A stretch of 41,945 nucleotides of DNA from a bacterium (lineage in GTDB: Bacteria > Patescibacteriota > Saccharimonadia > Saccharimonadales > Saccharimonadaceae): contig JAUIGH010000003.1 of assembly GCA_030429935.1 (NCBI GenBank), positions 1 to 41,945 on the forward strand, given 5' to 3'. Position 1 is the stretch's first letter, and each line of letters starts with the position of its first letter. The position numbers and the translations under genes were made by a program. Under the pieces are notes generated by a model. It was not told the origin of the DNA and made no database searches. It saw only the letters and a list, made by a program, of their open reading frames with translations. Shown here piece after piece: positions 5,014 to 41,044 of this stretch.

Positions 5014-5019
5014 GTGATG

Positions 5020-5025: not shown

Positions 5026-5105
5026 TATGGTATGCGCATCCGAGGCCAGCAGTCCTCATCTTTCAACGCTAGACACTGTATTGTACAAATAACAGCAAAT
5101 TGTAG

Positions 5106-5111: not shown

Positions 5112-5133
5112 GCCCATCATACAGGGGGGTGGT

Positions 5134-15687: not shown

Positions 15688-15689
15688 TT

Positions 15690-16790: not shown

Positions 16791-16853
16791 AAGTACTCCT
16801 CTCTTAGCGTCTACCACCCATGATACCCTACCTTTGCGTGAGTATGTGTTGCT

Positions 16854-18524: not shown

Positions 18525-18528
18525 CTTA

Positions 18529-19380: not shown

Positions 19381-19385
19381 CGTAT

Positions 19386-21095
19386 TTATCTATCTAGCAT
19401 AGCATCGTAAAGCCGCTTTGCGTTTCTCTTATCGTTATAGGCAAAGAAGTTATTAATTCGGTGTCTGTATTTAGCTTTCAGCTCGAATCCGTCTTCGATC
19501 TGACGTATTATTGCATCGATCAGAGATTGACTGTCATAACAGACCTCACCAAATCCGTCTTCTGGGTCTTTAAAGAAGGTCGGCTTACCACTTGTATGGC
19601 CACGATAAAATTCCGCGTAATCGGTTTGCGCATATAAAATGGGTTTACGTAGATAAGCAAAATCAAACGTGATACTCGAGTAATCGCTGACCAAGAGTGA
19701 ACCTTCTTCCAGAGCCCGTCGGTAGTTATAGGGAAACTTCATTATCTGAAAGTGATCATTACTACTAAAATCACTGTACTGGGCGGCAAATACTGGATGA
19801 ATGTAGAACTCAGCAGTAACACCGTGCTTATTCATGGCTGCATGTAGGCGCCTGTCACTCATGAGATCAGCATAAAACTTATAATATTCGGACTTTTTGA
19901 ATCCTTGATCGTACTTCCGTAAGCCATTCTTGTTCGTTTTCATACGGATTAAGTATTTCCGATATGTCGGCGCAAGAATTATTTTATTCTGAGGGTTACT
20001 CTCAAGCATGTCATAGCGTGGGAGACCGCTCATGACTATTTGATCTTCACGGTAGTAATACGCATTTTTTAGTAGTGACTCGTACTCCGGTTGTGCGGTT
20101 GTCACGAATAGCGCTATATTTTTATTAAATCGATTGAGCCAGCCAGATAGATCGTGGCGGATTATTCCGTGCTGCAAAAACACAAAATCAAAATTCATCA
20201 GATCGGCGAAATGGTCAAACTGTCGCCTAAATGGATTCGTGATCTCTACATCAGCCTGTGAAGATATGATTTTATCAGCCTGCAGGTGCATGAGTTTATG
20301 TCTACGACTGCCATACTCGAGCACTGGACCAATTGCAGACAAACGCTCAAAGTCCGCTGATTGCTTAGAAAGTGCAAAATATACACGCGCCGGCATATCA
20401 TCACGACCCATTAGGTAGCGAAAGAAGGCCTCGCCGTTATCGCCCGCTGACATCACGCGGTCGCTTACAATCCAGATTGGCTTTTGTTGATTTTTCTGGG
20501 CTGCAAAGTATTGTTTACGAAGCCTAAGGCTATACGGCACATTCCAGGCGGTCTCGACTGCCATGAGAATAGATTTTAATATTGTAATGAGTTTTGGCAG
20601 CAGGGGATTTGCATGTTTAATTTTCTGTCGTAGATACTCGTAGCGCCAATCAATAAGTATTTGGCGACGAAACCGAGACTCAAGCACGTCAATCAATCCC
20701 GGGTTTGTGGCAGCATAAAAGAGTTTTCCATCCTCTTTTATGACAGTAGTTTGATCTTTAACTACATACGACATACCGAGCGACGACAAGCCTGTAAACT
20801 TGTTTGTACGAATACATAGTTGTGAGTCTTTGTAGATGAACTGAACTTCAGTTTTTATTGATGAGTCTATCTCAATCACTGCCTCAAACGTACTGCCAGC
20901 AATTGGCGCCTGCTGCTCTAGACCGTCCTGCGATTGAATGCGTTCTACGAATTCGATATCTGTTTCTATGTTGTTTACGCAGAGTCTTATTTTTTCGAGA
21001 TCGATTGCTTTGCCACCTAAATAGCCTTCGAGCTTATGTACTCCCGGTCTAACCTCATGAATAAAATCAATGTATATATATGTGAATCTGTTCAT
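19386..21095 (-). CDS. CDP-glycerol glycerophosphotransferase-like polymer transferase (TagF/TarL family)
   Basis: The 569-residue protein has an N-terminal 190-residue beta-rich part (RPGVHKLEGYLGGK onward) and a C-terminal glyphos_transf domain: FLQHGIIRHD, GLPRYDM, APTYRKYL, FYIHPVFAAQY (catalytic-type His) and SDYSSITFDFAYLRKPILY, then a C-terminal block KYRHRINNFFAYND. These are the conserved signatures of TagB/TagF/TarL enzymes. It directly follows the ABC transporter genes and is likely the chain polymerase; which phospho-alditol it uses is unknown. It is AT-richer than genes outside the operon. Confidence 0.87.
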   Translation of the reverse strand: MNRFTYIYIDFIHEVRPGVHKLEGYLGGKAIDLEKIRLCVNNIETDIEFVERIQSQDGLEQQAPIAGSTFEAVIEIDSSIKTEVQFIYKDSQLCIRTNKFTGLSSLGMSYVVKDQTTVIKEDGKLFYAATNPGLIDVLESRFRRQILIDWRYEYLRQKIKHANPLLPKLITILKSILMAVETAWNVPYSLRLRKQYFAAQKNQQKPIWIVSDRVMSAGDNGEAFFRYLMGRDDMPARVYFALSKQSADFERLSAIGPVLEYGSRRHKLMHLQADKIISSQADVEITNPFRRQFDHFADLMNFDFVFLQHGIIRHDLSGWLNRFNKNIALFVTTAQPEYESLLKNAYYYREDQIVMSGLPRYDMLESNPQNKIILAPTYRKYLIRMKTNKNGLRKYDQGFKKSEYYKFYADLMSDRRLHAAMNKHGVTAEFYIHPVFAAQYSDFSSNDHFQIMKFPYNYRRALEEGSLLVSDYSSITFDFAYLRKPILYAQTDYAEFYRGHTSGKPTFFKDPEDGFGEVCYDSQSLIDAIIRQIEDGFELKAKYRHRINNFFAYNDKRNAKRLYDAMLDR

Positions 21096-21128
21096 GTCTG
21101 CTCGAGGTTCAAAATCGCCCCTAGTGTT

Positions 21129-22292
21129 CTACGTTTTTTCAATTTGCAGCTCGCTAGGAAGGGTCGTTGGGTAGTGGACGTGTCTTGGATCATTCTCGAT
21201 GATGGCTACATTGTTATAAACGTCGTAAACATCTCCGCCTATCTTTTCGATCCTTACTCCGACGGAAAATTTACCTTTCCCTAGTGTATTCAAAGACGAA
21301 AATGTAATCGTCTTGGTCTCACCCTGACCGAAAGTAAGTTTTTGCCCATTTTTTGAACACATACTGTTTGTGCCAGCGATCACTTTTCCATTCTCGTTAG
21401 TTATGATAACGGCCAACTTCACATTACTAACCTCTTCTTCGGCTTTGGCAGTAATTGACATGAACAATCCATCAGATTTTTTTTCAACAGTAAAGTTCTC
21501 GACTCTCACTGCACCCGTTCCCTGTCGTTTGCTATCCTTAGAATCGCTATCTGAATTGAATAGGTCTAGGTATGCATCCGCAGCCTCGTTTGCCTCACCC
21601 TCGTAGACTATTCGCCCACCGTCAATAACAATAGCCTTATTGCAAAACTGCCGTACGTTTCCCATACCATGAGTTACTAAGATTACAGTTTTATTGTCAT
21701 TTTTCAGCTTCTCGAAGTACTTATTACACTTTTTCCTGAACGCCGCGTCGCCTACCGCCAAAACCTCGTCCAACACTAAAACGTCGGCTTTTGCGCGGAT
21801 AGCAACCGAAAAGGCCAGGCGGACTTTCATGCCGCTGGAGTAGTTTTTGAGTTGCTGGTCCATGAAATCCTCTAGCTCGGCGAAAGAAACGATGTCATCG
21901 TACATGGCATCAATTTCGGTTTTGGAAAATCCGAGCAGCGCGGCGTTGAGATAGACGTTTTCCCGACCCGTCAACTCAGCTTTGAAACCGACACCGAGCT
22001 CGATAAAGGAGACTATTTTACCCTCGTGCTGGACGCTTCCGCTCGTCGGCTGATAGATCTCGGAAATAATCTTCAGCAGCGTACTCTTACCTGATCCGTT
22101 GCGGCCGAGTATACCAAAGAAGTCGCCTTTTTCGACGTTGAACGACACGCCGTCAAGCGCGTAAAAGGTTTCTTTGGAGGTATCTTTTGGCTTGAACAGT
22201 TGCGTGATTGCACGCTTGATCGAGTTATTTTTGTGGCTGGTATACGAGAATTGCTTGCGTACGTCCTTGACCTGGATGGCGTATTTTGACAT
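21129..22292 (-). CDS. ABC transporter ATPase for surface polymer export, with Wzt-type C-terminal domain (TagH/Wzt)
   Basis: Energises export of a lipid-linked polymer together with the permease that ends 2 nt upstream. ATPase part about 1-245: Walker A GRNGSGKST, Q-loop region, signature YSSGMKVRLAF, Walker B VLVLDEVLAVGD and H-loop VTHGM. Residues about 255-387 form a beta-sandwich-like extension (VRVENFTVEKK onward, ending DPRHVHYPTTLP) resembling the Wzt C-terminal domain that recognises the polymer end. Base composition changes inside the gene: by hand count about 51% G+C in 21781-22080 and about 41% in 21121-21540, which suggests that the binding half and downstream genes have been exchanged. 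Confidence 0.9.
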   Translation of the reverse strand: MSKYAIQVKDVRKQFSYTSHKNNSIKRAITQLFKPKDTSKETFYALDGVSFNVEKGDFFGILGRNGSGKSTLLKIISEIYQPTSGSVQHEGKIVSFIELGVGFKAELTGRENVYLNAALLGFSKTEIDAMYDDIVSFAELEDFMDQQLKNYSSGMKVRLAFSVAIRAKADVLVLDEVLAVGDAAFRKKCNKYFEKLKNDNKTVILVTHGMGNVRQFCNKAIVIDGGRIVYEGEANEAADAYLDLFNSDSDSKDSKRQGTGAVRVENFTVEKKSDGLFMSITAKAEEEVSNVKLAVIITNENGKVIAGTNSMCSKNGQKLTFGQGETKTITFSSLNTLGKGKFSVGVRIEKIGGDVYDVYNNVAIIENDPRHVHYPTTLPSELQIEKT

Positions 22293-22294
22293 GA

Positions 22295-23110
22295 TTAAAT
22301 CCTCTCCGCAAAATATGGTGATCGGCTACGGAAGTACCAGGCACCAAATACCAGTGTCAGAACACTAATTACATATGGTGCCAGCAACACATATAGATTG
22401 TCAGTGATAGTCAAAGCTGTGTCAGCCGTTGCTGTGATGCCGAAATGTCGGGCATCCTGGATCGCTTGAGTGATCGGGCTGAGCGACAGCAAGACTGCCG
22501 AGTTGTAGTGAAAGGCGACGACTTGGTTGAGCGGGAACATGATGGCTGAGCCATAAAACAAGGCCTGCGTTGCTACTTCCCAGATGTAATCGATGTCGCG
22601 GAATCGAACATTAATTGCTGCAAACAGAAACGCCAGACCAAGACCAAAGACGTAGAGTTCGAATATGAATACACCGATCAACAGCGTTCCCCACCCAAAC
22701 TCGACGCCGTTTAGAGCCGCAAATATCGCCACCACGACGAGGTTAATCAGTAGATTGATGATTGCCGACAAACTGGTCGAGACAACGATGATATATTTCG
22801 GAAAATTGATCTTGCGGATGACGCCGCCATTACTGACAATTGACTTAAGGCCCTGCTTGACGACCTCTTGAAAGAATGTCCACATGACAATTCCGAGTAG
22901 CAGCGCCACGCCCCAGTTTTCAACCCCTTTACCGATTCCAAGAATAACCGCAAAGAACACGTAGATAATAGCGAACATAAATAACGGCCGAAGCAGCGCC
23001 CACATATAGCCGAGCACCGAGTTCTGGTAGCGGAGCTTGAAATCGGTGATGACCAGTTCACGCAATAAGATAAATGAGTAGCGGTATTTTTGATAGATTT
23101 TTTCTAACAT
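22295..23110 (-). CDS. ABC transporter permease for surface polymer export (TagG/Wzm)
   Basis: ABC-2 type permease of 271 residues with six hydrophobic helices. RDFKLRY-like ITDFKLRYQNSVLGYMW and LLRPL at the N-terminus are the marks of polysaccharide exporters, and INVRFRDIDYIWEV lies in the middle loop. With the next gene it forms the exporter of the teichoic-like polymer. The ATG at 23110 (MLEKIYQ) is preceded by AGGTGA and preferred; a GTG at 23119 is also in frame. It heads the operon: a TATACT box lies at 23125-23130. Confidence 0.93.
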   Translation of the reverse strand: MLEKIYQKYRYSFILLRELVITDFKLRYQNSVLGYMWALLRPLFMFAIIYVFFAVILGIGKGVENWGVALLLGIVMWTFFQEVVKQGLKSIVSNGGVIRKINFPKYIIVVSTSLSAIINLLINLVVVAIFAALNGVEFGWGTLLIGVFIFELYVFGLGLAFLFAAINVRFRDIDYIWEVATQALFYGSAIMFPLNQVVAFHYNSAVLLSLSPITQAIQDARHFGITATADTALTITDNLYVLLAPYVISVLTLVFGAWYFRSRSPYFAERI

Positions 23111-23124
23111 ACGTATCACCTAAC

Positions 23125-28679: not shown

Positions 28680-30053
28680 GTGCAAACAAGTTTATGGAAA
28701 AGCGTGCTCGGCGAAATCCAACTATCGGTTTCGCATGCCAACTTCACCACATGGTTCAAGCCAACCGAATTGATTGAGCAGTCAGATGAACAAATTACGA
28801 TTGCTGTGCCGAACACGTTTTACAAACGCCAATTCGAAGTAAAGTTTGACGACCTAGTCCGCAGCGTCCTCGAAAAAAACGGCGCCACACCAAAACGCGT
28901 CATCTACACCGTGCGATCGTCCAGTACTCCGAAACGCGCCGGTGTCTCGCGCGAAATTTTACCCGAAGATATCTTACCAACCACCAGTTCTCATCCAACA
29001 TCGACGTCAGTCATTTCTAGTACATCGGGTTATGTCGGCAACTCCCTCAACCCACGCTACACATTCGACTCGTTCATCGTCGGCTCCAGTAATGACCTGG
29101 CCTACACCGCTTGTCAGGCTGTCAGCGAAAACCCCGGCACTAAATACAACCCACTCTTCCTCTACGGCGGCGTCGGTCTCGGTAAAACACACCTCATCCA
29201 AGCTGTTGGCAACAAGATCCAAGCAACCAATCCAAAGGCTCGCGTGCTTTACGTCAGTATCGAAACCTTCGTCAAAGAATACCTGGAGCACGTCCGCTTC
29301 AAAAAAGGCGATTTCTCGGGCAAGTACCGGAATGTTGATGTTCTGATCATCGACGACATCCAGTTTATCGCCAACAAAGAAAAGACGCAGGAAGAGTTTT
29401 TCCACACCTTTAACGCCCTACACCAAGCCAATAAACAGATCATCATCAGTAGTGACAAACCGCCGCGCAACATTCCGACCCTGACCGAACGTCTAAAAAG
29501 TCGATTGGAGTGGGGTATGTCGATCGATATCCAGATGCCGGACTTTGAAACGCGCTGTGCTATCCTCGAGATCAAGGCTTCGGCCAGTGGTGTGACGCTC
29601 GACAGCGAGACGATTGAGTTTTTGGCAACACACATCAAATCAAACATCCGCGAGCTCGAGGGTGCTCTCAATCAACTCCTCGCCTACGCCGAGATGCGTG
29701 GCATCACGCCTGACATTAGTACTGCCGAAGGTCTATTGGGTGATGTGCGCAAATCGCGACCGCGACACTTGACCCCAAAACAAATCATCGACAAAACCGC
29801 CAAGCAATTCCAAATAGAAGTCAACGAGATGTGCAGCGCCAAGCGCGACAAACACATCGTCACGCCGCGCCAGGTCGCCATGTACTTGTTGCGGAGCGAG
29901 CTTCATATGAGCTTTCCGCAGATAGCCCGCGAGCTCGGCCGCAAAGACCACACCACGGCCATTCACTCGATCGAAAAGATAGATAAAGCCATCAAGCTCG
30001 ACTACATGATCCGCGAGCAGGTTGCAGAGATTCGTGAGAAGTTATATGTCTAG
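28680..30053 (+). CDS. dnaA: Chromosomal replication initiator protein DnaA
   Basis: Binds DnaA boxes at oriC and opens the origin. It has 457 residues, starting at GTG 28680 with AGGGGTG ahead. Domain I (about 1-80) reads LWKSVLGEIQLSVSHANFTTWF, followed by a short linker; domain III AAA+ has Walker A GGVGLGKTHL, Walker B VLIIDDIQF and sensor II in the TERLKSRLEWG / RELEGALNQL region; domain IV ends in the box-binding helix block GRKDHTTAIHSIEKI. All key parts are present. It is transcribed rightward from oriC, followed by dnaN. Confidence 0.99.
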   Translation: MQTSLWKSVLGEIQLSVSHANFTTWFKPTELIEQSDEQITIAVPNTFYKRQFEVKFDDLVRSVLEKNGATPKRVIYTVRSSSTPKRAGVSREILPEDILPTTSSHPTSTSVISSTSGYVGNSLNPRYTFDSFIVGSSNDLAYTACQAVSENPGTKYNPLFLYGGVGLGKTHLIQAVGNKIQATNPKARVLYVSIETFVKEYLEHVRFKKGDFSGKYRNVDVLIIDDIQFIANKEKTQEEFFHTFNALHQANKQIIISSDKPPRNIPTLTERLKSRLEWGMSIDIQMPDFETRCAILEIKASASGVTLDSETIEFLATHIKSNIRELEGALNQLLAYAEMRGITPDISTAEGLLGDVRKSRPRHLTPKQIIDKTAKQFQIEVNEMCSAKRDKHIVTPRQVAMYLLRSELHMSFPQIARELGRKDHTTAIHSIEKIDKAIKLDYMIREQVAEIREKLYV

Positions 30054-30322
30054 TCGGAAAAGTTGTGAACAATTGTCGCGCTCATCGTGGACAACTCGCG
30101 GTAGAATGTGTGGATTGTTATACACAGGAGTTACGTGTATTGATTTTCTGATCATCAAATCTGTGTACAGCGCCGTGACTTTCCGCATAGTATCCAGAGT
30201 TCGTGAACACATTTTTTCACAACCGTCCGCAAGCACATTACCACTGTTAAATCACCGATTATCCCCAGTTTCCACAGCACCTATAACTACCTAGAATCAG
30301 ATAAAGAAAGGATCTTGAACAC
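30054..30322 (+). other. Origin region, dnaA-dnaN side, cluster of DnaA boxes
   Basis: Non-coding, 269 nt. One perfect box TTATACACA (30118-30126, +) is directly preceded by TGTGGATTG (30109-30117, minus, 7 of 9). One-mismatch boxes are TGTGAACAA (30064-30072, minus), TTTTTCACA (30213-30221, +) and TTATCCCCA (30259-30267, +); CGTGGACAA (30086-30094, minus) has two mismatches. AAAGGA precedes the dnaN ATG by about 11 nt. The cluster suggests that this gap is also part of oriC. Confidence 0.75.
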
Positions 30323-31423
30323 ATGAACGTCCAAACCACCCAAGAACAGCTGACAAAAGCTTTAGCGGCAACGAGCCGCGTGGCATCGGCAAAAGCTGGA
30401 CTGCCCGTACTAGGTAACGTCTTACTGCGCACTAGCGGGTCGAATCTGCTGGTCGCAGCAACAAATCTCGAGCTCGCCGCGACGACGCACGTTGGCGCGA
30501 AAGTGGCTTCCCAAGGTGACATCACTGTGCCAGCAAAACTACTCAGCGAATTTGTCGCTAACCTACCGAAAGAACCCGTTGAACTCGATGTAAAAAACCA
30601 TAGACTGACTGTTACTTGTGGCGGTTACACTTCAACACTCAACGGTATCGAAGCTGACGAGTTTCCTGAATTACCGACGATCGATGAAAAAACCTCAATT
30701 CATTTTTCGATTTCGCGTGATGATTTCAAACAAGCCGCCGCGCAAACAACCCTGGCCTGCAGTAACGACGTGACACGCCCGGTGCTAACTGGACTATATT
30801 GGCACACACATGACGGCTCGCTATACCTGGTAGGTACCGACGGCTATCGATTGGCCGAGCGCAAACTATTCACGAGCAAAAGCGAACTGGCGGCTATCGT
30901 ACCGGTTACAACCATCCACGAAGCGCTGCGGGTGTTACCAGACTCAATTGAGGAGCTCGATGTGTTGTTCGATGACAGCCAGGTGCGATTTCGGATCGGT
31001 GACACCGAGATTACTAGTCGGTTGATCGACGGTAAATATCCTGATTACCGACAACTGATACCGACTAGTAGCGAGACGAGTCTGACAGTAGCGACCGATG
31101 AACTGACGCGAACCGCTAAAATCGCTCGACTATTTGCCCGCGATAGCGGCGGCAGTATCACGATGTCGGTAGACGGCGACGCTTCGCAACTGGCGATCAA
31201 ATCAGTCGCGTCAGATATCGGCGACAACACAGCAACCCTCGATGTCGAGGCGACCGCGAGCGGCTCGGTGTCGCTCAATTCACGGTATCTATCGGAAGCG
31301 TTAGCGGTGATCGGCAGCGAATCGCTCACAATCGCATTCAGCGGCAAGCTCGCCCCGATCGTGATGACACCAGACGCAAAATCCAGCGACTACACGCACA
31401 TCATTATGCCACTCAAGAGTTAG
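30323..31423 (+). CDS. dnaN: DNA polymerase III subunit beta (sliding clamp)
   Basis: Ring-shaped processivity clamp that tethers polymerase III and other enzymes to DNA. It has 366 residues, the normal length, with three similar domains: NVQTTQEQLTKALAATSRVA starts domain 1, GLYWHTHDGSLYLVGTDGYRLAER closes domain 2 (split here as GLYWHTHDGS and GTDGYRLAER), and the C-terminus reads PIVMTPD...YTHIIMPLKS as in other clamps. It follows dnaA on the same strand. Its stop lies one base from the stop of the convergent secretion-operon tail gene, with no room for a terminator. Confidence 0.98.
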   Translation: MNVQTTQEQLTKALAATSRVASAKAGLPVLGNVLLRTSGSNLLVAATNLELAATTHVGAKVASQGDITVPAKLLSEFVANLPKEPVELDVKNHRLTVTCGGYTSTLNGIEADEFPELPTIDEKTSIHFSISRDDFKQAAAQTTLACSNDVTRPVLTGLYWHTHDGSLYLVGTDGYRLAERKLFTSKSELAAIVPVTTIHEALRVLPDSIEELDVLFDDSQVRFRIGDTEITSRLIDGKYPDYRQLIPTSSETSLTVATDELTRTAKIARLFARDSGGSITMSVDGDASQLAIKSVASDIGDNTATLDVEATASGSVSLNSRYLSEALAVIGSESLTIAFSGKLAPIVMTPDAKSSDYTHIIMPLKS

Positions 31424-31424
31424 A

Positions 31425-32087
31425 TTACTCTAGTAAATGCTGGTTTATTGAGCTACGTACTGAAAGTGGTACTTCAATCTCGGCAGACTCTACTATGACA
31501 GCCGAAGGTTGCGGTGGATCGCTGACAATCGACCATTGATCATCTTGTTTATGTAAAATTATCACGACGTCATCTCGATCCGTTAACGCGTCACCTCGAT
31601 ACTCGAGGATACTCGCAAACCAATCACCGCGTTCGTAAAGTGCCCCAGTGGGCGGTTCGTATAGCTCGGATAAATTCGGCGCATACTGACGGATGACCGC
31701 CTGAATGGCTGATAGTTCCTGGTCATGTAGCTGCTCGAGACGCGGCTGATCGTACGCGGCACGTATTTCTGTTACAGGTTGATACGGTGTGAATTCCCGG
31801 GTCACTCCGTCAGAGAATCCATCAGACCCACTGTAGCGTATCTCGTAGCGAGGCGTAGTGTATCGCAAGACCATAGGACCTGTTGAGTCGAGGCTTTGGG
31901 TGACTTCGCCAGTTGATACGTCTACCAGTTCAGCTCGAGACACGCCATCAAGTGTTATTTCGACAATCTGCTGCGAACGTTCGGTATTCGTCGTAATGTA
32001 AAACCACGTCAGCAGTGCTATGATAACAATCGCTAACACACCAGTCGCGATCAAAATAGTGCGTATGCGATAGTTATATGTCATCAT
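31425..32087 (-). CDS. Membrane-anchored protein at the end of the type IV secretion operon
   Basis: Family not recognised. It has 220 residues: a short cytoplasmic start, one helix at about 10-32, and an exported domain of roughly 180 residues with VEITLDGVSRAELVDVSTGEV and a later soluble part (IQAVIRQYAPNLSELYEP, ILEYRGDALTDRDDVVIILHK). The last part has the look of a small alpha/beta domain similar to its neighbour's. Its start overlaps the upstream gene's stop by 4 nt (ATGA), so the two are coupled. It could be a VirB8-like or accessory channel subunit by place and topology, but no motif proves this. Confidence 0.65.
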   Translation of the reverse strand: MMTYNYRIRTILIATGVLAIVIIALLTWFYITTNTERSQQIVEITLDGVSRAELVDVSTGEVTQSLDSTGPMVLRYTTPRYEIRYSGSDGFSDGVTREFTPYQPVTEIRAAYDQPRLEQLHDQELSAIQAVIRQYAPNLSELYEPPTGALYERGDWFASILEYRGDALTDRDDVVIILHKQDDQWSIVSDPPQPSAVIVESAEIEVPLSVRSSINQHLLE

Positions 32088-32737
32088 TCATCTCCTCTAT
32101 CTACTACCAATGGCGACGTATAATCTTCGTAAACAATAATAATTTGATTGATATCGTAGCCATTGTTTGCTAGCCATTTCAGAGCATCACGACGACCCTC
32201 AGTCGAAGAGTTTTCTATAACGAGTATCGGCACGCCATCAGCATTCGAGCCGCCATAGCTGACGCGATATACTGATGCCAGTCCAAAGTGTCGGTGTGGT
32301 AAGTCGGGGATGTTCGGATACTGCTCGAGTAGTCTATCGCTAGCTATCCGCAGCTGCTCAGCTCCGGCGGTCTCGTAGCGTACGTTTTCGTCTGGATTAT
32401 CGCGGAGGTATTGTTCGCCGACATCATCAACCGGCTGTGTCGTCGGAGTAATTGTTGTGGTGGTGGGTGTGACGGTGATAGCGTATTCACGACTATCGAA
32501 CCCTTCACGTTCAATTGAGACAGTGTGAACACCTGGTCGAATGTAATTAACCCCGTCTCGGATGGCGCCATGTTCGTAAGTCACACGAGCATCAGCCGGC
32601 ACGACAATAGCCTCAACACGAACCATCCCTACTCTGTTATGAATATACCAAGCGAAACTCGCTATCAAAACGAGAGCAGTCACTACGGCGCTCACGACGC
32701 TGATTCGGATAATTGTTTGTTGTCGATTATTATTCAC
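32084..32737 (-). CDS. Membrane-anchored protein with PEGA-like domain, secretion operon
   Basis: It has 217 residues starting at GTG 32737, chosen because a perfect AGGAGGTGA lies 8 nt before it; the gene then overlaps the hydrolase stop by 8 nt. One helix at about 13-36 anchors it. Residues 40-90 read VVPADARVTYEHG, NYIRPGVHTVSIEREGFDS, like a PEGA surface domain, followed by a Thr/Pro linker (TPTTTTITPTTQP) and a C-terminal alpha/beta domain of about 115 residues (LPHRHFGLASVYRVSYG, ALKWLANNGYDINQIIIVYEDY). It resembles the next gene in topology. Exact role unknown; probably an envelope part of the secretion system. Confidence 0.7.
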   Translation of the reverse strand: MNNNRQQTIIRISVVSAVVTALVLIASFAWYIHNRVGMVRVEAIVVPADARVTYEHGAIRDGVNYIRPGVHTVSIEREGFDSREYAITVTPTTTTITPTTQPVDDVGEQYLRDNPDENVRYETAGAEQLRIASDRLLEQYPNIPDLPHRHFGLASVYRVSYGGSNADGVPILVIENSSTEGRRDALKWLANNGYDINQIIIVYEDYTSPLVVDRGDE

Positions 32738-34088
32738 TTTGCTCACCTCCTGGATCAAAATCATCACCTTGAGTTGTGGCTAGTCGGAAATAGCGGTGAG
32801 CATCTTTGTATGGGCCGCCCATCGGATCGGTCCAGCCAGCTCGCGGTGCTTTGTCAGGTAATGATGCTTCAGCGACCTCGATGCCATTTTGTAAAACATC
32901 GTTTTTGCCGACATAGATTAACATGTGTCGCCCTGGCTGTCCTGCTGACACACCGATGTTGTAGCCGATAATTGTACCAGGTACGAGGTCGGTTTGAGAC
33001 TGTGGGGTGTACTCTATATACTTATTGCTATTGCTCATGTAGGTCATACCTTGGTCGATGCTGTAGTCAGTACTATAGTCTGGGTCGGCACCCGAATCAC
33101 GCATAACTCGTTTGACAAAAATATGACAGTCGACACCGTCGAGACTCGATTGACCACCTCTACCATAGCCGTTGACATTTTCGCCGTTGGCTTTAGCGGT
33201 GCGAATCGCATCAGCATATTCTGGTTTTAGCGTTAATGTGTTGCGCTGGTCTGGCCAAGCGTATTCTAAAGCTTTTGCAACTACTCCCGTCGCGTCAGCA
33301 GCCGCACCACTACCAGTATAGCAACCGTTACTGCTCAGAGAGCCAGCAGCAGACGGATCGCCGTCGCCGTAATCATCCAGAGCTGCTTGAGCGTTTGCGA
33401 GGCGCGATTCAAAATGTGGCACACCAGGCGCTTCGTAGTCGGTCATAAAGATTTCAGTGGCGTCCTTGAGATTGGTGGTGGCGGTGAATTTATCATAAAA
33501 ATCCGTACGGCCGGTCGGTGTTGTGTCTTCAATATGCCACCAGATAACCTCCAGCTGAGCAGCCAACTCGTACGGTTTAGTGGCGGGCAAATTATTGTCT
33601 TTGATGATTTGTTCGAATTTTTTTGATGGTGTCCATTGGATGAGCCCCCAGCCAGGTTGGCGCGTCTGTCCACCTGGCCAACCAGATACGACAGGCAGCG
33701 AGCTCGGGTCGTTGGTGCTGAATGGCAGGCCGCTTCCTGCTAGACGTTCGACGATCAGCGGATCGGCGGCGCCAGCTGATTCAGTAGCAATATTACCGAC
33801 TGCAGCTGCGGCGTGAATTGGTTTCAGACCTTTGGCGATCAAGAAATTGTATATTTTCTCTAAATTTTCTCCGCCGACGAGCGTACCACTACCTGACGCA
33901 GAACAGGCCACTGCTTCATCGTCAAATAGCGGCGGTATATTATTTTGACTATAGATATCGAGATTTATAGCCGCCGTATCGTATATCGGAGCTAGTGTTA
34001 GCACTGTTATGGAAACCAGTACGAAAACTAATCGCGACAATACGTGTTTTTTGAAATGTTGGAGTGGCGATCTTGTTAAACGGGACAT
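32730..34088 (-). CDS. Two-domain cell wall hydrolase of the secretion operon (phage-tail-lysozyme-like + NlpC/CHAP-like)
   Basis: Predicted exported protein of 452 residues serving the role of VirB1: opening peptidoglycan for the secretion channel. A hydrophobic signal or anchor lies at about 19-34. Residues 70-240 match the phage tail lysozyme pattern (IHAAAAVGNIATESAG with Glu103, then GWGLIQWTPSKKF). Residues 262-435 look like a papain-fold peptidase with Cys321 (LDGVDCHIFVKRVM) and His388 (GRHMLIYVG). The start overlaps the end of the upstream gene by 13 nt. Having both a glycan- and a peptide-cutting module in one protein is like Gram-positive VirB1-type proteins such as TcpG or CwlT. 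Confidence 0.83.
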   Translation of the reverse strand: MSRLTRSPLQHFKKHVLSRLVFVLVSITVLTLAPIYDTAAINLDIYSQNNIPPLFDDEAVACSASGSGTLVGGENLEKIYNFLIAKGLKPIHAAAAVGNIATESAGAADPLIVERLAGSGLPFSTNDPSSLPVVSGWPGGQTRQPGWGLIQWTPSKKFEQIIKDNNLPATKPYELAAQLEVIWWHIEDTTPTGRTDFYDKFTATTNLKDATEIFMTDYEAPGVPHFESRLANAQAALDDYGDGDPSAAGSLSSNGCYTGSGAAADATGVVAKALEYAWPDQRNTLTLKPEYADAIRTAKANGENVNGYGRGGQSSLDGVDCHIFVKRVMRDSGADPDYSTDYSIDQGMTYMSNSNKYIEYTPQSQTDLVPGTIIGYNIGVSAGQPGRHMLIYVGKNDVLQNGIEVAEASLPDKAPRAGWTDPMGGPYKDAHRYFRLATTQGDDFDPGGEQSE

Positions 34089-37000
34089 TTGTTTGCCTCG
34101 TTAACTCCACTCGGGACGTACTCCCAGTGCCAATTTTCCTCAGAGTATTGTTTGATGTTGAGCGCTGGTGCATTTTCATCGAGCCATTTCCATACTGGAT
34201 CTTCTGATCTTTGTCTACCGCTACAGCTTGTTTTAGAGCCTTCCTGTGACCCATCTGTTAGATTAAAATCAATAGCTGCTCCCAACTGATGGTGAGATTC
34301 TCCTGGATTAGCACACCCCTCACCTGAACATGGCTGAACGAGTCGGAACGACGAGTTTGAGTATAGTTTTTTGACAGGTAAATTATTTGCTTCCGCATAG
34401 TCCATATAGTCGCTACCGAGTTTTTGGTATATTCCAGCTACGGCCGCGTTTAGGACAGCGCCACTAGAATCATCTGTTGTCTTGGTTTCATTGTTCCAAC
34501 CTGTACCATCAATACTACTCAGGCGACAGAGCTTGATTGAAGGATTATCGTTGCCGGCAGGAATCCGCACTCCGGTATACTGAGTTTTGATCGTACCGAT
34601 ATCTTCGGTTCCGCCAGGACATTCTGCTGATGGGTTAACTAGCTCTGCATCTACTGGTGCGGACGTGGCATTCGTTGTAATACCAACCTCTTCAGTATCA
34701 AGGTCGTTGAAAGCCTGCATGACTTGGTAATCAACCAAGAAGACACTGATAGCCTCAGTCGACCGCGGATCTTTTATACCACTATTTTTGAGGGATGAGT
34801 CGCTATCGGCATCTGGGCAACCCGGGCCTTCTTCGTCCTCAGCGATAGCCTCATCGCAACGTGGGTGTCGGCCCGAGGCTTCACCTGACGAGTTGATGGC
34901 AACACAGTTTTCATTGCTGAAAATAAATTCTCCGCTAGCTGGATTGGCGCACTGGGTTATGTAATCAGATAGAGGTGTATCTTCGATGATCACCCCAGCC
35001 TCGATCAGTTCAGCGGGCGTGGCACCGTCAGGCATATCTTTTGTCTCATCGACCCAGCCCTCATCGATCATCAAACCGATCGCTGTACCAGTATCCATAC
35101 CGTTTTGGGCAGCGGTAAATCCGTGACACGATGTACCGGCAAAAGTACGTGTGACATCATCAGCACTACTGCCATTGCTATCGCTTGCGGTGTAGGCGTC
35201 ACCACTACTACAGTAATCAGTCGAGTAGGTATTGTTTGCATGACTAGCTGGCATCAGTGACCCAAAGGCTGTGCTAGTAAATATCGCTAATTTTTGGAGT
35301 GGACTAGCGGCGTAGTATCCGCTAGACAACAAACTTACACCTGAGTTGTGGACAACGCTGCCGAGCGCTGTATAAGGTGTTGATATATCAAATGGACTGA
35401 GTGTCTCACGAGCCATCTCGCCGTAAAATCGTTCGTTTTCGGCACGGATAACGTCGTATTCTGCTAGTTTTGATTTGGTGAGCGGCGGGATAGCCCGTGC
35501 CGTAGCACCGCTCGCGAAAAAGGCTGCCGCACCGATACCGATCGTGTCACCCAACTCAACACCACGGGCGGCTGGGATGGCATCGTTTTCGGCCAGTTCG
35601 GTCAGTGATTCGGTGACGAAGTTTCCTAGCTGGGCTTGCAAGAATTGACCGACAAAATAACCGACAGCAAATCCTGCAGCCACTTTAATGAGCCCGCCGA
35701 CGATTGTTGATGATGCTAATACACTTGCGGTGGCGTCGACACCTTGTGCGGCATACATAGTGGTCGGGTGTAGGACGACATCACAAGCTTCTTTGGTAGA
35801 AGCTTCGGTCGCTGCTGCGTTACGGACAGTCGGACTTTGTAAAAATCCAAAGGCTGGGCTGAATTTTGTCGAGGGTTCGATCTTTCCGCCCAATCCGGCT
35901 GCGGCTAATAGATACGGTGACTCTGTTGCTGAGCCGAGTTTACCGGTTTCACTATGTGGCACACGCTCGGTAAGCGGTATACTAGCGGCTTCGACGTCGG
36001 CTGGATCGACGGCACTGGCGCCGTCGACAGCTGCCGCCTGGATGCGTGCACCGGGTGAGCCTGCACTATATAAAAACGCATCAGCCACCTGAACGAGTTG
36101 GATCGAAGCGATGCCGATGGCGGCAAAACGCGGTATCTTCGGTGCGATACAGCCAGCGGCGGCGACGTAGTAAATAGTACCACCTCTTTTGACGCTATTG
36201 AGCTTGCTTGTCAGGCGAGTTTTGACGTCGGCGATGCGGCCTCGGAGCTCCTGAGCACCCGGAATCGAGTCGATTTTGCGTGTTAAGGCTTGCTTGGCTC
36301 GCTCGGTATTTGATAATCCAGGTTTATTATCACCGCCAGACGAACCGCCGTTACGATTGAGCCCGAGCGGGTTATAGAAGGCTTTTTTCATGATGTTTCC
36401 TGCCCAGGCTTTGGTGCGAAAGTTGATTGCTCCACCTGGTCCATAAATTTTGGCGGCAAATTTGCGATTTTCGCGTTGTAACAAGAATCCATTCAGGTCT
36501 TTAATAGCGACGCGCTTCTCTACTCCATCAGCAGTGAATAAGTAGTGTGACGGATTTTTATCTGGCCAACCAGTTCGCTTATTCTGGGGTTCGCTACAAT
36601 TCCCATCAAAACACGCTCGAACTCCTTTTTTGTCGAGTTTACGCAACGCTGAATTGGATATCATACCCATACCGCGACATTTAATACGTTTCGACTGACA
36701 GTTAGGGTCGGCACTATCACCAGATGCGTATGTAAATGCTTTGATAAATCTCTGCTCCATAACCGTCGACGACGAGTCGTTGAACGTTGTCAACATCTGC
36801 ATCAGCGAGGTGACCATGAAGCCACCTGGTACTATAAATGAAAATATCGCCAACACGCCCGCCAGCCCACCGCCTATACCGAGAAACGGCGCTGATCGAC
36901 GAAAAGTTTTACTTTTCATCAAGGCCTGGGCGCGACCACGGAGAGTTGTTGGTTTGTTGGTCCCGGTGTAGTTGTTGATGTGTGAGGCGGACTGTTCTTT

Positions 37001-37207
37001 GTCTTGAATACGTTGGGCGCTAGCTGCGATAGAGTTTTCGTTTTGCCTATCTTCGCTCGGGGCGCGAAATTGATTTTCTAGATCATTTACTTCTCGAGCT
37101 CGTTCATCCGCACTCACTCCTAGATCATCGTGACTGCCATCAGGACGACCGAGCTTTTGGTCGTATGTGTCTTGGATGCGGTTGGGGTCGTCTATTTTGG
37201 TTGCCAT
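34076..37207 (-). CDS. Large membrane protein of the secretion operon ending in a VanY/M15 peptidase domain
   Basis: The 1043-residue protein has a charged cytoplasmic start of about 100 residues, a strong helix at about 106-136, further hydrophobic stretches near 345-380, 496-525, 553-575 and 637-655, and a Cys-containing loop region between them. This layout recalls VirB6-like channel proteins, though I see no decisive motif. The last 100 residues are clearer: ESHHQLGAAIDF (from about 970) and ENWHWEYVP (about 1024-1032) are the zinc and catalytic motifs of D-alanyl-D-alanine carboxypeptidases of the M15/VanY family. It lies 9 nt after virB4. A channel protein with a fused wall peptidase would be unusual; a wall enzyme with several anchors is the alternative. 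Confidence 0.78.
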   Translation of the reverse strand: MATKIDDPNRIQDTYDQKLGRPDGSHDDLGVSADERAREVNDLENQFRAPSEDRQNENSIAASAQRIQDKEQSASHINNYTGTNKPTTLRGRAQALMKSKTFRRSAPFLGIGGGLAGVLAIFSFIVPGGFMVTSLMQMLTTFNDSSSTVMEQRFIKAFTYASGDSADPNCQSKRIKCRGMGMISNSALRKLDKKGVRACFDGNCSEPQNKRTGWPDKNPSHYLFTADGVEKRVAIKDLNGFLLQRENRKFAAKIYGPGGAINFRTKAWAGNIMKKAFYNPLGLNRNGGSSGGDNKPGLSNTERAKQALTRKIDSIPGAQELRGRIADVKTRLTSKLNSVKRGGTIYYVAAAGCIAPKIPRFAAIGIASIQLVQVADAFLYSAGSPGARIQAAAVDGASAVDPADVEAASIPLTERVPHSETGKLGSATESPYLLAAAGLGGKIEPSTKFSPAFGFLQSPTVRNAAATEASTKEACDVVLHPTTMYAAQGVDATASVLASSTIVGGLIKVAAGFAVGYFVGQFLQAQLGNFVTESLTELAENDAIPAARGVELGDTIGIGAAAFFASGATARAIPPLTKSKLAEYDVIRAENERFYGEMARETLSPFDISTPYTALGSVVHNSGVSLLSSGYYAASPLQKLAIFTSTAFGSLMPASHANNTYSTDYCSSGDAYTASDSNGSSADDVTRTFAGTSCHGFTAAQNGMDTGTAIGLMIDEGWVDETKDMPDGATPAELIEAGVIIEDTPLSDYITQCANPASGEFIFSNENCVAINSSGEASGRHPRCDEAIAEDEEGPGCPDADSDSSLKNSGIKDPRSTEAISVFLVDYQVMQAFNDLDTEEVGITTNATSAPVDAELVNPSAECPGGTEDIGTIKTQYTGVRIPAGNDNPSIKLCRLSSIDGTGWNNETKTTDDSSGAVLNAAVAGIYQKLGSDYMDYAEANNLPVKKLYSNSSFRLVQPCSGEGCANPGESHHQLGAAIDFNLTDGSQEGSKTSCSGRQRSEDPVWKWLDENAPALNIKQYSEENWHWEYVPSGVNEANKCPV

Positions 37208-37216: not shown

Positions 37217-39109
37217 CTAGGGTTGAGGCTGTTCCTGTGGGGGTGCTGAAAGTTGACCATTTGGCTGAGCTTGAACTTGTTGGGCCTGGGCGATTTGCGC
37301 CAGTTCCTGCGGGTTGGTCGTGATCAGTTGGTGCTCGGTTTGGCTTGCGATAATCTGGATGTGGACGTGATTTTGTCCAGCAAAAAACAGCCCCTGCCCC
37401 ACTGGGAAGTTTGCTAAGCGTTTCTTTTCTTCTTCGGTCAGTTTGAACACGTCGGCGAGCACGTCGACGGCACTGGTCGATTGTTTCAGGAGTAGTTGCA
37501 TCGAGCTGTTGGCGACGATCGAGCGGCCCATTTTGCTACCCATAAAGTCTTCGACGTCTTGAGTGATCGTCGTGAGACCGAGCTGGTATTTACGGGCGCG
37601 TTTGGCAATCGAAGACAGGAAGTTTGCCGAGTCATCATACTTCATCAGCTGCCACGCCTCATCAACGATCAGCATGCGCTTGCGCTGATTGGTGCGAGTG
37701 ATATTCCAGATGTGACCGAGGATAATATACATAGCGACTGGACGCAGCTCTTCTTCGAGGTCTCGGATGTTAAACACCACCAATGTGTTATTGATGTCAA
37801 TGTTCGATTGCTGCGAAAAGATGCCCGCGAAGGTGCCGGTGGTGTATTTACGTAAACGCTGAGCCAGCCCAGGACCAGTACCGCCCATATGGAGCAGTGT
37901 GTCGTATAGGTCATTGATGGTTGGCGGCGTCGAATTATGCGTCAATGGGTCGCTAGTGATGCCGGCGCGGGCGTACGTGTCGATCAGCGCTTGGTCTAGG
38001 TCGGCTTCTTCGGCGGGAGTTAGCCCCGCCATCATCTGGCCACTGGCGGTCATCTGCGAGCTACCGAGCATCAAACGCAATAAACCATGCAAAGTGACGA
38101 GGTTGGCGCGCAAGGCGTCGTCGGCTTCTTCAGTGTCAATAACGCGCGGCAAGTCAAACGGGTTGATGCGCGTATCACTGTTGAGGCTGAGGCGGATGTA
38201 ACTACCACCGACGGCGTCGGCCAGCTTTTGATACTCATTTTCTGGGTCGATAATCAGAACTTCGGCACCCGTCATCATACTGCGCAAGGCTTCAAGCTTG
38301 ACAGTGAACGATTTACCGGCGCCGGACTTGGCAAAGACGACCATATTGGCGTTCTCTAGAGTGAAGCGATCAAAGATGACCAGACCGTTGTTATGCATGT
38401 TGATGCCGTACAGTATGCCTTTGCCATCGGACAAATCGGCGCTGGTAAACGGAAAGCTGGTCGAAATCGCGCCAGTGTTCATGTTGCGACGAATCTGTAG
38501 CTCGTCGGTCATCTGTGGCAGCGTGCTATTCAGGCCTTGTTCTTGCTGGTTGGAGGCGACCTTACTAAACACCAACTGTTGGCCAAAGATAGTTTCAATC
38601 TTGCGCTGGACAAAGCTCAGTTCATCGAGACTATCGGCGTACAGCGTCAAGTAGAGGCCGTAGCGAAAGAATCGTTCGGCGCCGACCTGTAGCTGATCTC
38701 GCAGCTCTTCGGCGTCACGCAGTGCTGCTTCGAGTCCAGGGTCGCGAGTTTTGCCCTTTTCGGCGTTGATCGACATGCTAGCCTGGAGCTGGGTGACTTT
38801 CTTTTTCAGGTTATTGAGCACGACTTGGCTTTCGACTGGATAGACAAACATACTGACGTCGAGCACTTCGTCGATATTGATGACGCTCGACAGCCAACCG
38901 GTGTAGACTTCGCGCGGGTAGCCATAAACGTAAATCGTTCGGCAGTATTTGGTGCCCAATCGGAAATAGCCTGCATGGATCTCGAGACTACTCGGCGCGA
39001 TTAGATCGCGCAGCGTGTTCATACCGCGCAGGAAAGCCTGCTCGACCTCGGCTTGCTCGCGCGCTTTTTGCTCGGCCGCGATGTCGACCGGATCTTGTCG
39101 CTTTGCCAT
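37217..39109 (-). CDS. virB4: VirB4/TraC-type secretion ATPase
   Basis: The conserved ATPase of type IV secretion systems, driving pilus assembly or substrate transfer at the membrane inner face. It has 630 residues. The N-terminal domain (about 50-250) reads GTKYCRTIYVYGYPREVYTGW and ends with PFTSADLSDGKG; the ATPase has Walker A AKSGAGKSFT, IIDPENEYQKL, Walker B RMLIVDEAWQLM and the TITQDVEDF motif near the end. The tail is Gln/Pro-rich. GGAGGAGGT sits 8 nt before the ATG, within the last codons (GGGGS) of the preceding gene, 2 nt away. The operon order PrgI - N-domain protein - VirB4 is the Gram-positive/CPR type. Confidence 0.95.
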   Translation of the reverse strand: MAKRQDPVDIAAEQKAREQAEVEQAFLRGMNTLRDLIAPSSLEIHAGYFRLGTKYCRTIYVYGYPREVYTGWLSSVINIDEVLDVSMFVYPVESQVVLNNLKKKVTQLQASMSINAEKGKTRDPGLEAALRDAEELRDQLQVGAERFFRYGLYLTLYADSLDELSFVQRKIETIFGQQLVFSKVASNQQEQGLNSTLPQMTDELQIRRNMNTGAISTSFPFTSADLSDGKGILYGINMHNNGLVIFDRFTLENANMVVFAKSGAGKSFTVKLEALRSMMTGAEVLIIDPENEYQKLADAVGGSYIRLSLNSDTRINPFDLPRVIDTEEADDALRANLVTLHGLLRLMLGSSQMTASGQMMAGLTPAEEADLDQALIDTYARAGITSDPLTHNSTPPTINDLYDTLLHMGGTGPGLAQRLRKYTTGTFAGIFSQQSNIDINNTLVVFNIRDLEEELRPVAMYIILGHIWNITRTNQRKRMLIVDEAWQLMKYDDSANFLSSIAKRARKYQLGLTTITQDVEDFMGSKMGRSIVANSSMQLLLKQSTSAVDVLADVFKLTEEEKKRLANFPVGQGLFFAGQNHVHIQIIASQTEHQLITTNPQELAQIAQAQQVQAQPNGQLSAPPQEQPQP

Positions 39110-39111: not shown

Positions 39112-40014
39112 CTAGGAACCTCCTCCGCCCGTGTTCATGCGCGGCGCTTCACCAGCACCTTTTTTGACGAACGTCGGCGTGTTTTGCCCAAAATCACCCA
39201 GCGGCTGGTTGACGCTGGTATCGGGATTGTATGAATTGTAATAGAGCTCGCCGAGTTGTTTGGTATTGAGACGATTTGATTCAACGCCGACTTGGAACAG
39301 GCCGCTGGTAACGGTATCGACACGAGTTGATAGTTCGTCTTTGGCTTTGTCGTACGTCTCTTGGCTGATTTTGGTGACTGCTGGGCCTTTGTTGCCGAAT
39401 ATACTCGAGAAGAAACCTTTGCTTTGTTCGACAAGTTTGGCGGCGTCGCCCTCTGGGTAGTACGGTATCACAATGTAGAATGATTTTTCCATAATATTAG
39501 CGCTCTGAGCCAGGGCGTCGACAAAGTCGAGATAATCCTCCATCAACACATTGAGTAGCATATTGTCCTGTGAGCGGCGAATGTTATCGAGCCGCTCAAT
39601 ATAGGGAGCGATATCGACACGTCGCGACCGAACGAGCACTTGTATGGGAAAGAATAGTGAGTTGAGAAAGTTTTGATAACTAAATTCGATACCTTCGCGC
39701 TCACGGGCACTCATCAGGTCAAAGTTGATCGACTGACACGAAATAACAGCGCGAAATGTGCCATCGCTCATGACGATCATGCCGTCGCGGAGTTCTGAAA
39801 ACAGTAGGCTTTTTTGCGCAGTCGTTTGGTTGCTGGCTTGTTTAGCCTGCTCCTGTTGTGGCTGTGTTGGCTGTTGGCCGGGTTGCTGAGCGGCTGGCGG
39901 CGTGGCTTGTGGCTGCATGTTGGCAGGAACTTGCGGTTCAGGAGCCATACCCACCTGTGTGTTGGGGGGTTGTTGGCTGGCTGGCTGTACTGGCTGCTGG
40001 TTGTTTGGCGGCAC
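39112..40014 (-). CDS. TraC/TrsD-like protein with VirB4 N-terminal-type domain and P/Q-rich head
   Basis: It has about 300 residues from GTG 40014, chosen because AGGAG lies 7 nt before it; the GTG at 40029 has no such site. The first 70 residues are low-complexity Pro/Gln (NNQQPVQPASQQPP and similar), probably disordered. The rest (LLFSELRDGMIVMSDGTFRAVISC, then SYQNFLNSLFFPIQVLVRSR and YLDFVDALAQSANIMEKSFYIVIPYYP, each under 25 residues) matches the N-terminal part of TraC/VirB4 ATPases without the ATP site. It lies directly ahead of virB4 and likely forms part of the ATPase assembly. Confidence 0.85.
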   Translation of the reverse strand: MPPNNQQPVQPASQQPPNTQVGMAPEPQVPANMQPQATPPAAQQPGQQPTQPQQEQAKQASNQTTAQKSLLFSELRDGMIVMSDGTFRAVISCQSINFDLMSAREREGIEFSYQNFLNSLFFPIQVLVRSRRVDIAPYIERLDNIRRSQDNMLLNVLMEDYLDFVDALAQSANIMEKSFYIVIPYYPEGDAAKLVEQSKGFFSSIFGNKGPAVTKISQETYDKAKDELSTRVDTVTSGLFQVGVESNRLNTKQLGELYYNSYNPDTSVNQPLGDFGQNTPTFVKKGAGEAPRMNTGGGGS

Positions 40015-40045
40015 GTCCCCACTCCTCACGCGAGATATCTATCGA

Positions 40046-41044
40046 CTAACGGAGCGATATGACAACCTCATCGTTGTCTTTTTCTTTTTCCTCGATACGA
40101 TGCGCCTCACGCGCGATCGTTTCCACCGTTAGGTCCTTGTTGCTTGCGAGATTTATTATATCAGGCGACAGGGGCTTTTCGCTAGTGGTTTCAGGTGATT
40201 CGGTACTTTGAGTCGGTTCAGGCGGTGTGGTCGATTGCTGCTGCGGCGTAATCGGATCTGGCTGGGGTTGTAGTGTGGTGGCCGCTGCCGGATCGGCCGC
40301 AGGCGGGTTGCCTGACGGTGAGACGACATGCTGATGCATGTTTGGGTATGGGTCAAACGTCGGCGCACCCGTACCGGTCGGCGCAGCTGGCTGTGGGGTT
40401 TGGAATTGTGCTGATGTGTTGGGTGGTGCGGCTGCTTGAGTCGGCTGTGGCTGCGGGCTATGCATGCGCTGAACCATTTGCTCGCGGCGCGATTGATCGG
40501 CTTTGTCGATCATGGTGTCGAATGAACGCGCTAGTGAGCCGTTTTCGTCCCAGCTATCCGGTGTGTTTTGGGCATCGTTGTAGACATCGCTGACCATCGA
40601 GGTTTGTTGTGGCCGTTGGGCATTACGAATCGACCAGCCCTGGGTGTCGGCTAGTGTGGCCAGGTACGCGAGACGTTGCTCGGCTTCGTTGCCGGAGATA
40701 TCTTTTGTCAGTACCTGTTGAACGGTATGTGATGCGGTGATATCGATCAATGACTGAATACCGTCAGGCTGCCACAGACGCTTGCGGGGCTTGACGTAGT
40801 ACGATACCAGCGCGGCCAAGTAGACTTCCATCGGTTGGTCTTTGCGTAGTGGCAACGCTAAGACAACGAAAAACAATACAATTGGCATCGGAATGATGAC
40901 CAACGGCGCAAATAGCGTGAATAGCCCATAGGCCAAGATACCAGCCATCGCGGCGATCACCAGATAGATAAATTGTCGAAAACTAAACGGTCCGAGGAGC
41001 TTATCCTCCGCTTCGACATCTTGGGCGACTTTGTAGCTAGCCAT
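40046..41044 (-). CDS. PrgI family type IV secretion protein with long P/Q-rich tail
   Basis: Membrane protein of 332 residues related to PrgI, the Gram-positive counterpart of VirB3. The start MASYKVAQDVEAEDKLLGPFS and two helices at about 24-45 and 47-65, followed by YYVKPRKRLWQPDG, are typical. Family members are commonly near 120 residues; this one adds about 200. Residues about 185-300 are rich in Pro, Gln, Thr and Ala, and the last 30 residues are charged (EKEKDNDEVVISLR end). A TATAAT box ends 8 nt before the ATG. It leads into the TraC-like and virB4 genes, so it sets their transcription if the box is real. Confidence 0.88.
   Translation of the reverse strand: MASYKVAQDVEAEDKLLGPFSFRQFIYLVIAAMAGILAYGLFTLFAPLVIIPMPIVLFFVVLALPLRKDQPMEVYLAALVSYYVKPRKRLWQPDGIQSLIDITASHTVQQVLTKDISGNEAEQRLAYLATLADTQGWSIRNAQRPQQTSMVSDVYNDAQNTPDSWDENGSLARSFDTMIDKADQSRREQMVQRMHSPQPQPTQAAAPPNTSAQFQTPQPAAPTGTGAPTFDPYPNMHQHVVSPSGNPPAADPAAATTLQPQPDPITPQQQSTTPPEPTQSTESPETTSEKPLSPDIINLASNKDLTVETIAREAHRIEEKEKDNDEVVISLR

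Follow-up and report, generated by a model that had tools for sequence, protein, structure and literature searches.

A scaffold protein encoded in the type IV secretion operon of Saccharimonadales, with exchangeable C-terminal enzymes

The type IV secretion system (T4SS) of Patescibacteria was mapped near dnaA-dnaN, and homologues of a peptidase and a lysozyme encoded just downstream of virB4 were described as essential for epibiotic growth of S. epibionticum (PMC12102498). The T4SS locus SEML1_0006-0019 was also reported to be essential (PMC10633639). For oral TM7, an M23-type MepM with LysM was placed in a conserved VirB4-VirB6 operon in which VirB4 is conserved and VirB6 is clade-specific (PMC7739484). 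A perspective from 2024 called the role of the Saccharibacteria T4SS "completely unknown" and gave nucleotide uptake as one idea (PMC11665869). Here we analyzed a T4SS operon on contig JAUIGH010000003.1 (assembly GCA_030429935.1), positions 1 to 41,945; this whole stretch of 41,945 nucleotides is referred to as the window. Its source, a member of the Saccharimonadaceae, is a tiny bacterium, probably living on other bacteria. The gene studied, the scaffold-hydrolase gene, encodes a long scaffold followed by a C-terminal enzyme, the tail. We class its product as an accessory protein of the T4SS whose modular build recalls polymorphic toxins.

A hidden Markov model (HMM) of the scaffold (688 positions) was grown from residues 1-740 of the window's protein, and the iterative search converged on 139 open reading frames (ORFs), among them the window's gene, which lies next to virB4. 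The sample comprised 143 stretches, 132 of them with a VirB4 of the window's type and 128 with a same-strand ORF after it. This first ORF belonged to the scaffold family in 122 of the 128 loci. Some of the loci come from duplicate records of a genome; once near-copies had been taken out, 111 full-length members were left. Their tails were M23 (27), M15 (26) or nuclease-like (Exo_endo_phos), the latter with M23 in ten members and alone in two, while 18 members had no enzyme. Rarer tails were CHAP (3), NlpC/P60 (3), Amidase_2 (1) and M14 (1), and the remaining ones were of an unassigned HxH type (9) or unknown or unusable (11). The scaffold stays while the C-terminal enzyme differs between species.

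The tail classes were assigned by HMMs grown from Pfam-identified seeds, with the M15 and M23 seed HMMs run on the ORFs of the sampled loci, and by hand-set labels; Pfam scans of the members agreed with the classes. Labels set by hand were M15 for locus L041 (by motif, with no Pfam match), NlpC/P60 for L042 (21.0 bits) and L025 (20.0 bits), both below the cut-off, the nine HxH-type tails (by motif) and eight tails labelled unknown. Three of 21 members initially scored as enzyme-free were set aside before the final count, namely L125, in which a frame change puts the rest of the scaffold into the next ORF, L142, which is only 49 bases away from the end of its contig, and L080, which matched the scaffold poorly. 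The interruption in L125 (11870-13873), with the profile continuing in the next stretch, is a sequencing error or a broken gene. Active-site residues were largely intact. Among M23 tails, D was kept in 36/37 and the HxH histidines in 36/37 and 34/37; among nuclease-like tails, E and H were kept in 18/18, and D and N of GDFN in 18/18 and 17/18. Exo_endo_phos domains with intact catalytic residues also occurred in tandem on the ectodomain side, two in L089, L090, L092 and L093 and three in L098. A sequence search returned no nearest structure for the nuclease-like domain, whose substrate may be DNA, RNA, lipid or another phosphodiester. One tail gave a GDSL-lipase match that could not be assigned to a particular locus; L065, when scanned, lacked it.

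In the window, the gene is an ORF open over all its 1043 codons and runs from 37207 to 34076 on the minus strand. An earlier note, made from the sequence alone and giving no strand, had claimed an M15 peptidase at the C-terminus of a large membrane protein in a secretion operon, and this was confirmed. Pfam VanY matched residues 964-1032 (E 1.8e-6, 28.2 bits, cut-off 25), and the tail alone scored 31.1 bits. The motifs SHHQLGAAIDF and ENWHWEY are present, and H973, D980, E1024 and H1027, which we take to be the catalytic and zinc-binding residues, are all in place, so the zinc ligands, whose absence the earlier note had named as counter-evidence, are there. This stretch aligned with 24 other tails, with H kept in 25/25, D in 25/25 and both E and H of ExWH in 21/25; therefore, the match is far beyond chance. 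VanYB structures were among the weak structural matches for residues 851-1043 (Z 3.6, 4.8 A, 115 residues). The tip of the window's protein is a VanY-type peptidase, with peptidoglycan stem peptides as its predicted substrate. The window's genome encodes a second VanY-type gene outside the T4SS operon (G000:C44:1285-1602).

The enzyme was mapped on trees of VirB4 and of the scaffold. On the VirB4 tree (93 labelled entries, 11 states) there were 42 tail-class changes, with a minimum of 10 and a shuffled mean of 57.4. Restricting the tree to M15, M23 and no enzyme (74 entries) gave 21 changes, and M15 versus M23 alone gave 10 changes versus 16.3 when shuffled. On the well-supported branches of this tree taken by themselves, 13 changes are unavoidable for M15, 12 for M23 and six for the enzyme-free state. 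The scaffold tree (102 entries, three doubtful ones still included) gave 51 changes; both trees were quick trees, and the end branches of the scaffold tree are long. Scaffolds that are 44-53% identical carried different tails, with identity dropping to background where the enzyme begins. The scaffold identity was 51% between L153 (amidase) and L154 (M23) and 44% between L107 (M23) and L146 (M15), and in both pairs most 50-residue scaffold blocks were 30-70% identical before the drop at the tail. The nearest VirB4 relative of the window is L085 (89% identical), whose tail is M23. The scaffold genes of these two loci were 24% identical in pairwise comparison, which equals the shuffled level (baseline 21-24), and the family HMM detected both.

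The variation extends beyond the tail. In the 45 closest VirB4 pairs, which share loci and hence are not independent, the median identities (%) were 89 for dnaA (25 pairs), 84 for dnaN (31), 72 for PrgI (42), 83 for VirB4-N (45) and 94 for VirB4 (45). In the same pairs, the medians were 41 for the VirB6-like gene (28), 34 for the scaffold gene (45), and 32 (41) and 27 (40) for the two genes that follow, with a shuffled baseline of 21-24. Loci L129 and L132 are 100% identical in dnaA, 99% in dnaN and 98% in VirB4, and their scaffold genes were 35% identical globally and 28% over the scaffold columns. Blastn of these two loci gave an 82% match from PrgI to 35 codons inside the scaffold gene, then 4.5 kb without match beyond the breakpoint, and a 91% match from the operon end onward. 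Mutation is unable to produce such abrupt divergence between conserved flanks, which therefore indicates recombination. Between L117 and L132 the DNA match resumed where the next gene begins; therefore, the scaffold gene can be replaced alone. The whole scaffold gene and its neighbours have been exchanged by recombination between conserved flanks. The VirB6-like protein (for example L129, 5107-8121) has a conserved membrane core with many invariant positions, the rest being variable, and is overall about 41% identical between loci with about 94% identical VirB4.

Hydropathy analysis gave one clear transmembrane helix (residues 108-126), a hydrophobic stretch (484-532) and weaker peaks elsewhere. 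The 20 residues preceding the helix contain six K/R and no D/E, and no K/R follow it; judged by this charge bias, the enzyme would lie on the outward side of the membrane. The ectodomain of about 730 residues has cysteines that are near-invariant across the family. Two AlphaFold2 models reached a predicted local distance difference test (pLDDT) of 73.3 and 76.4, with much of the ectodomain above 90 and the peptidase poor in one of them. Foldseek searches against the PDB and viral models gave no match to the scaffold fold at E up to 0.001. The best VIA-align Z was 6.4 (IniA), which is not meaningful for a helical bundle, and the best for the scaffold alone was 3.1. The N-terminal part matched no known family in Pfam and NCBIfam profile scans; a match to a non-secretion family, which the earlier note had named as counter-evidence, was therefore not found, nor was any other family or fold. 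A pore-forming reading, with ClyA-like long helices and a hydrophobic hairpin, gained no significant support and is not claimed.

The earlier note had read the N-terminal part as a VirB6-like channel segment, and a VirB6-like subunit fused to a wall peptidase would fit a large protein with hydrophobic parts in a T4SS operon, the more so as extended VirB6 proteins exist (PMC12857230). However, this fusion is very improbable, and the identification of the scaffold itself as VirB6 was rejected. A distinct VirB6/TrbL gene precedes PrgI (in L129, Pfam TrbL scored 21.6 bits at 485-683, slightly under the cut-off), the profiles are dissimilar (hhalign of the scaffold profile against 26 VirB6-like proteins of the same operon gave a probability of 0.4% over 3 columns), and the Pfam scan of the window's protein gave no TrbL match. 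TrbL_4 matched one of 43 '+1' proteins, most likely that of L066, which is outside the scaffold family. The several hydrophobic segments that had been noticed do exist as the helix, the stretch 484-532 and the weaker peaks, but they do not amount to the many helices of VirB6.

The operon comprises eight co-oriented genes on the minus strand, convergent with dnaN and dnaA, in the order VirB6-like C-terminus (at the contig end), PrgI, TrsD/VirB4-N-like, VirB4, scaffold-hydrolase gene, a Phage_lysozyme2 plus NlpC/P60-like gene and two small anchored proteins (Table 1). This bore out the secretion operon seen in the earlier note, as well as its two-domain wall hydrolase in the next gene (P0003), for which Phage_lysozyme2 was matched at E 4e-25 and NlpC/P60 at 19.5 bits, below the cut-off of 23. 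The TrsD/VirB4-N-like gene scored 25.2 bits against an NCBIfam cut-off of 200. VirB4 was present in 54 of 61 relatives; the relatives of the window's genome, like the named database hits, belong to Saccharibacteria/Saccharimonadia. Pfam and NCBIfam profile scans gave no family match for P0004 and none that was convincing for P0005. ORFs of 135-288 residues that sometimes follow the scaffold gene were considered as immunity genes and rejected; by eye they are anchor-plus-small-domain proteins like P0005 and P0004, whose profiles match several of them, not all.

Table 1. Features of the T4SS operon and of the scaffold-hydrolase protein (P0001) in the window
Feature	Position	Strand	Remarks
Scaffold-hydrolase gene, 1043 residues (P0001)	34076..37207	-	Member of the 139-ORF family (iterative HMM search)
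Residues 1-107, N-terminal tail, predicted cytosolic	36887..37207	-	Conserved D6 (93%), E71 (99%)
Residues 108-126, predicted transmembrane helix, N-in/C-out	36830..36886	-	Positive-inside rule; hydropathy 2.24, alignment mean 2.25
Residues 127-850, helical ectodomain (scaffold)	34658..36829	-	Conserved Cys170, 177, 353, 475, 753, 768; hydrophobic stretch 484-532
Residues 851-1043, M15/VanY-type peptidase tail	34079..34657	-	Pfam VanY; H973, D980, E1024, H1027
Phage-tail-lysozyme plus NlpC/P60-like hydrolase (P0003)	32730..34088	-	13-base overlap with the preceding scaffold-hydrolase gene
P0004, small extracytoplasmic domain behind an N-terminal membrane anchor	32084..32767	-	Operon position conserved
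P0005, N-terminal membrane anchor plus small domain	31425..32087	-	Homologues adjoin the scaffold gene in other loci
VirB4-type T4SS ATPase, CD1110 family	37217..39109	-	NCBIfam NF045971, 376 bits, cut-off 325
TrsD/VirB4 N-terminus-like protein	39112..40029	-	Weak NCBIfam TrsD and CD1110 matches
PrgI (VirB3-like)	40046..41044	-	Pfam PrgI, 47.7 bits
VirB6-like protein, C-terminal part, cut by contig end	41074..41943	-	Comparison with VirB6-like genes of related loci
dnaA and dnaN	28680..31423	+	Pfam; conserved flank of the exchanged cassette

Several further genes were observed. The window's genome has two more VirB6-like genes on contig C32. Loci L082, L083 and L084 have a second VirB4 system, 37-39% identical and with no scaffold gene alongside, which is a different T4SS or mobile element. 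The window also has a surface-polymer cluster (13900-23119, minus), in which two genes resemble CDP-glycerol glycerophosphotransferases, one (16854-18524) encodes a member of the Stealth family, and an ABC exporter bears a Wzt domain at its C-terminus. At 4939-6402 and 9487-11079 (plus), proteins with a CHAP domain and a long C-terminal part rich in repeats are further candidate envelope hydrolases.

We consider it somewhat probable that the protein is a recombining arm of the saccharibacterial T4SS with an enzyme at its tip, and that it faces the host. The transmembrane helix would fix it in the membrane of the epibiont next to the T4SS, of which it would be a part or with which it would work, and the ectodomain would carry the enzyme outward. 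There, at the point of contact, the enzyme would cut polymers in the envelope of the host bacterium and open a way for the apparatus to the host membrane; its action on the host wall is inferred. The downstream lysozyme-NlpC/P60 protein may perform the general wall opening of VirB1, and the variation of arm and tail may follow the chemistry of the host's envelope or serve to evade recognition by the host. That the arm is kept while its enzyme is exchanged or dropped suggests a component matched to different hosts.

Most tails have peptidoglycan hydrolase folds, and the characterised Gram-positive VirB1 homologues are all membrane-anchored with extracellular enzyme domains (PMC12857230), as here. 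The protein might thus be a VirB1-like opener of the epibiont's own wall that loosens peptidoglycan for T4SS assembly, with tails that are interchangeable as equally good. We regard this as rather unlikely. A second hydrolase gene (lysozyme plus NlpC/P60 or CHAP) comes next in most loci (LYZ2 matched 69 downstream genes), and because this separate protein can open the own wall, the host-facing arm is favoured. The same holds because the enzyme-free members (18/111) and the 12 with nuclease-like domains, which have no own-wall substrate, misfit a pure own-wall role, and because arm and tail vary between near-identical genomes, the exchange taking the ectodomain as well as the enzyme.

Regarding distribution, the scaffold profile matched 19 of 286 genomes drawn across the phylum, all 19 among the 22 from the window's order, and it matched none of three from other orders of the class and none of 261 from the rest. 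Within the order, 226 of 268 genomes matched, although the profile search may miss the most divergent members, as G042, G043, G049, G054 and G058 had a '+1' gene without a match. These genome samples (520 to 760 genomes) overlap much and were not summed. The scaffold is therefore specific to Saccharimonadales. The earlier note had proposed looking for the same fusion in genomes of the Candidate Phyla Radiation; the scaffold was indeed found there, but in Saccharimonadales only and mostly with a different enzyme.

Some genomes encode two or more full copies, with three full-length ones in the single-contig genome G251. Together with the nuclease-like domains, up to three in tandem, and with a constant N-terminal part bearing exchangeable C-terminal enzymes, which is a hallmark of polymorphic toxins (PMC3482391), these copies would fit an effector that reaches the envelope or cytoplasm of the host, whole or as its tail (the warhead), with the T4SS as its channel or as its means of delivery. 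Such an effector appears improbable. No immunity gene accompanies the scaffold gene, and in most loci a hydrolase gene is directly next; the place in the operon directly behind virB4 is fixed; and a transmembrane anchor follows the 107-residue tail, while no release site turned up, no search for one having been made.

Several points weigh against the host-facing arm. The tail class is partly inherited (42 changes vs 57.4), most clearly for nuclease-like plus M23, yet it turns over often, and such turnover of wall enzymes could be neutral if any cutter serves. The downstream hydrolase gene varies too. The VirB4 tree has modest support (27 of its 98 inner branches are starred), and almost every locus comes from a metagenome assembly. 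The peptidase gene reported as essential in S. epibionticum, which would favour the arm, is a candidate member of the scaffold family.

A wider reading of the host-facing arm is tentative and possible at best. The T4SS would be a device for boring through the host wall, and its outer cassette (the ectodomain of VirB6, the enzyme-tipped arm, the lysozyme and the small anchors), hypervariable and subject to recombination, would set which hosts can be attacked, with nuclease-like arms also feeding host nucleotides to the epibiont.

The T4SS is essential in the one strain screened, though its role was described in the words quoted above (PMC11665869). An enzyme that is exchanged among close relatives while the motor stays constant points to a variable partner in contact with the machine, in the simplest case the envelope of the host bacterium. 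The host specificity of ultrasmall epibionts thereby becomes testable gene by gene, and the tails provide a natural set of wall-cutting enzymes with a readable prediction per genome. A search of open-licence full-text literature (few subscription journals, without preprints or supplementary tables) found no description of an exchangeable tail or exchanged cassette. Neither is described in the available portions of PMC12102498, PMC10633639, PMC7739484, PMC11665869, PMC12857230, PMC12206443 and PMC12592800.

Compared with known systems, the protein shares features with phage tail tape-measure and internal virion proteins that carry a wall hydrolase, being long, mostly helical and provided with an enzyme for piercing the target wall; with no significant sequence or fold match, this is a likeness of principle only. 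Polymorphic toxins (Rhs and contact-dependent inhibition, CDI) likewise have a constant delivery part, an exchangeable C-terminal enzyme and recombination at a fixed place. In contrast to them, the scaffold protein has no paired immunity gene, has a transmembrane anchor, carries mostly wall hydrolases, and its constant part is itself highly divergent. The Gram-positive VirB1-like hydrolases (PrgK, TraG, Orf14/CwlT) resemble it as membrane-anchored, T4SS-encoded proteins with an extracellular wall-cutting domain. However, the scaffold protein has no muramidase/SLT core, its large ectodomain is without fold match, and its tail differs among close relatives. Profile scans gave no lytic transglycosylase, SLT or lysozyme domain in P0001, and one is present in its neighbour P0003, which resembles VirB1 more than the scaffold protein does.

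The closest system is the T4SS of Patescibacteria and Saccharibacteria (MPF-FATA; PMC12102498, PMC10633639), which is the same locus, with PrgI, TrsD-like, VirB4, VirB6 and wall hydrolases near dnaA-dnaN. In the available parts of these two papers, the peptidase appears only as a neighbour of virB4 or is unmentioned, and a common scaffold, its tails and the cassette exchange are undescribed. The account of oral TM7 (PMC7739484), as far as available, treats the peptidase as one fixed function, whereas M23 is here one of several tails on one scaffold. Peptidases beside virB4 and a clade-specific VirB6 were thus already reported; an exchangeable tail on a common scaffold did not appear in the literature searched.

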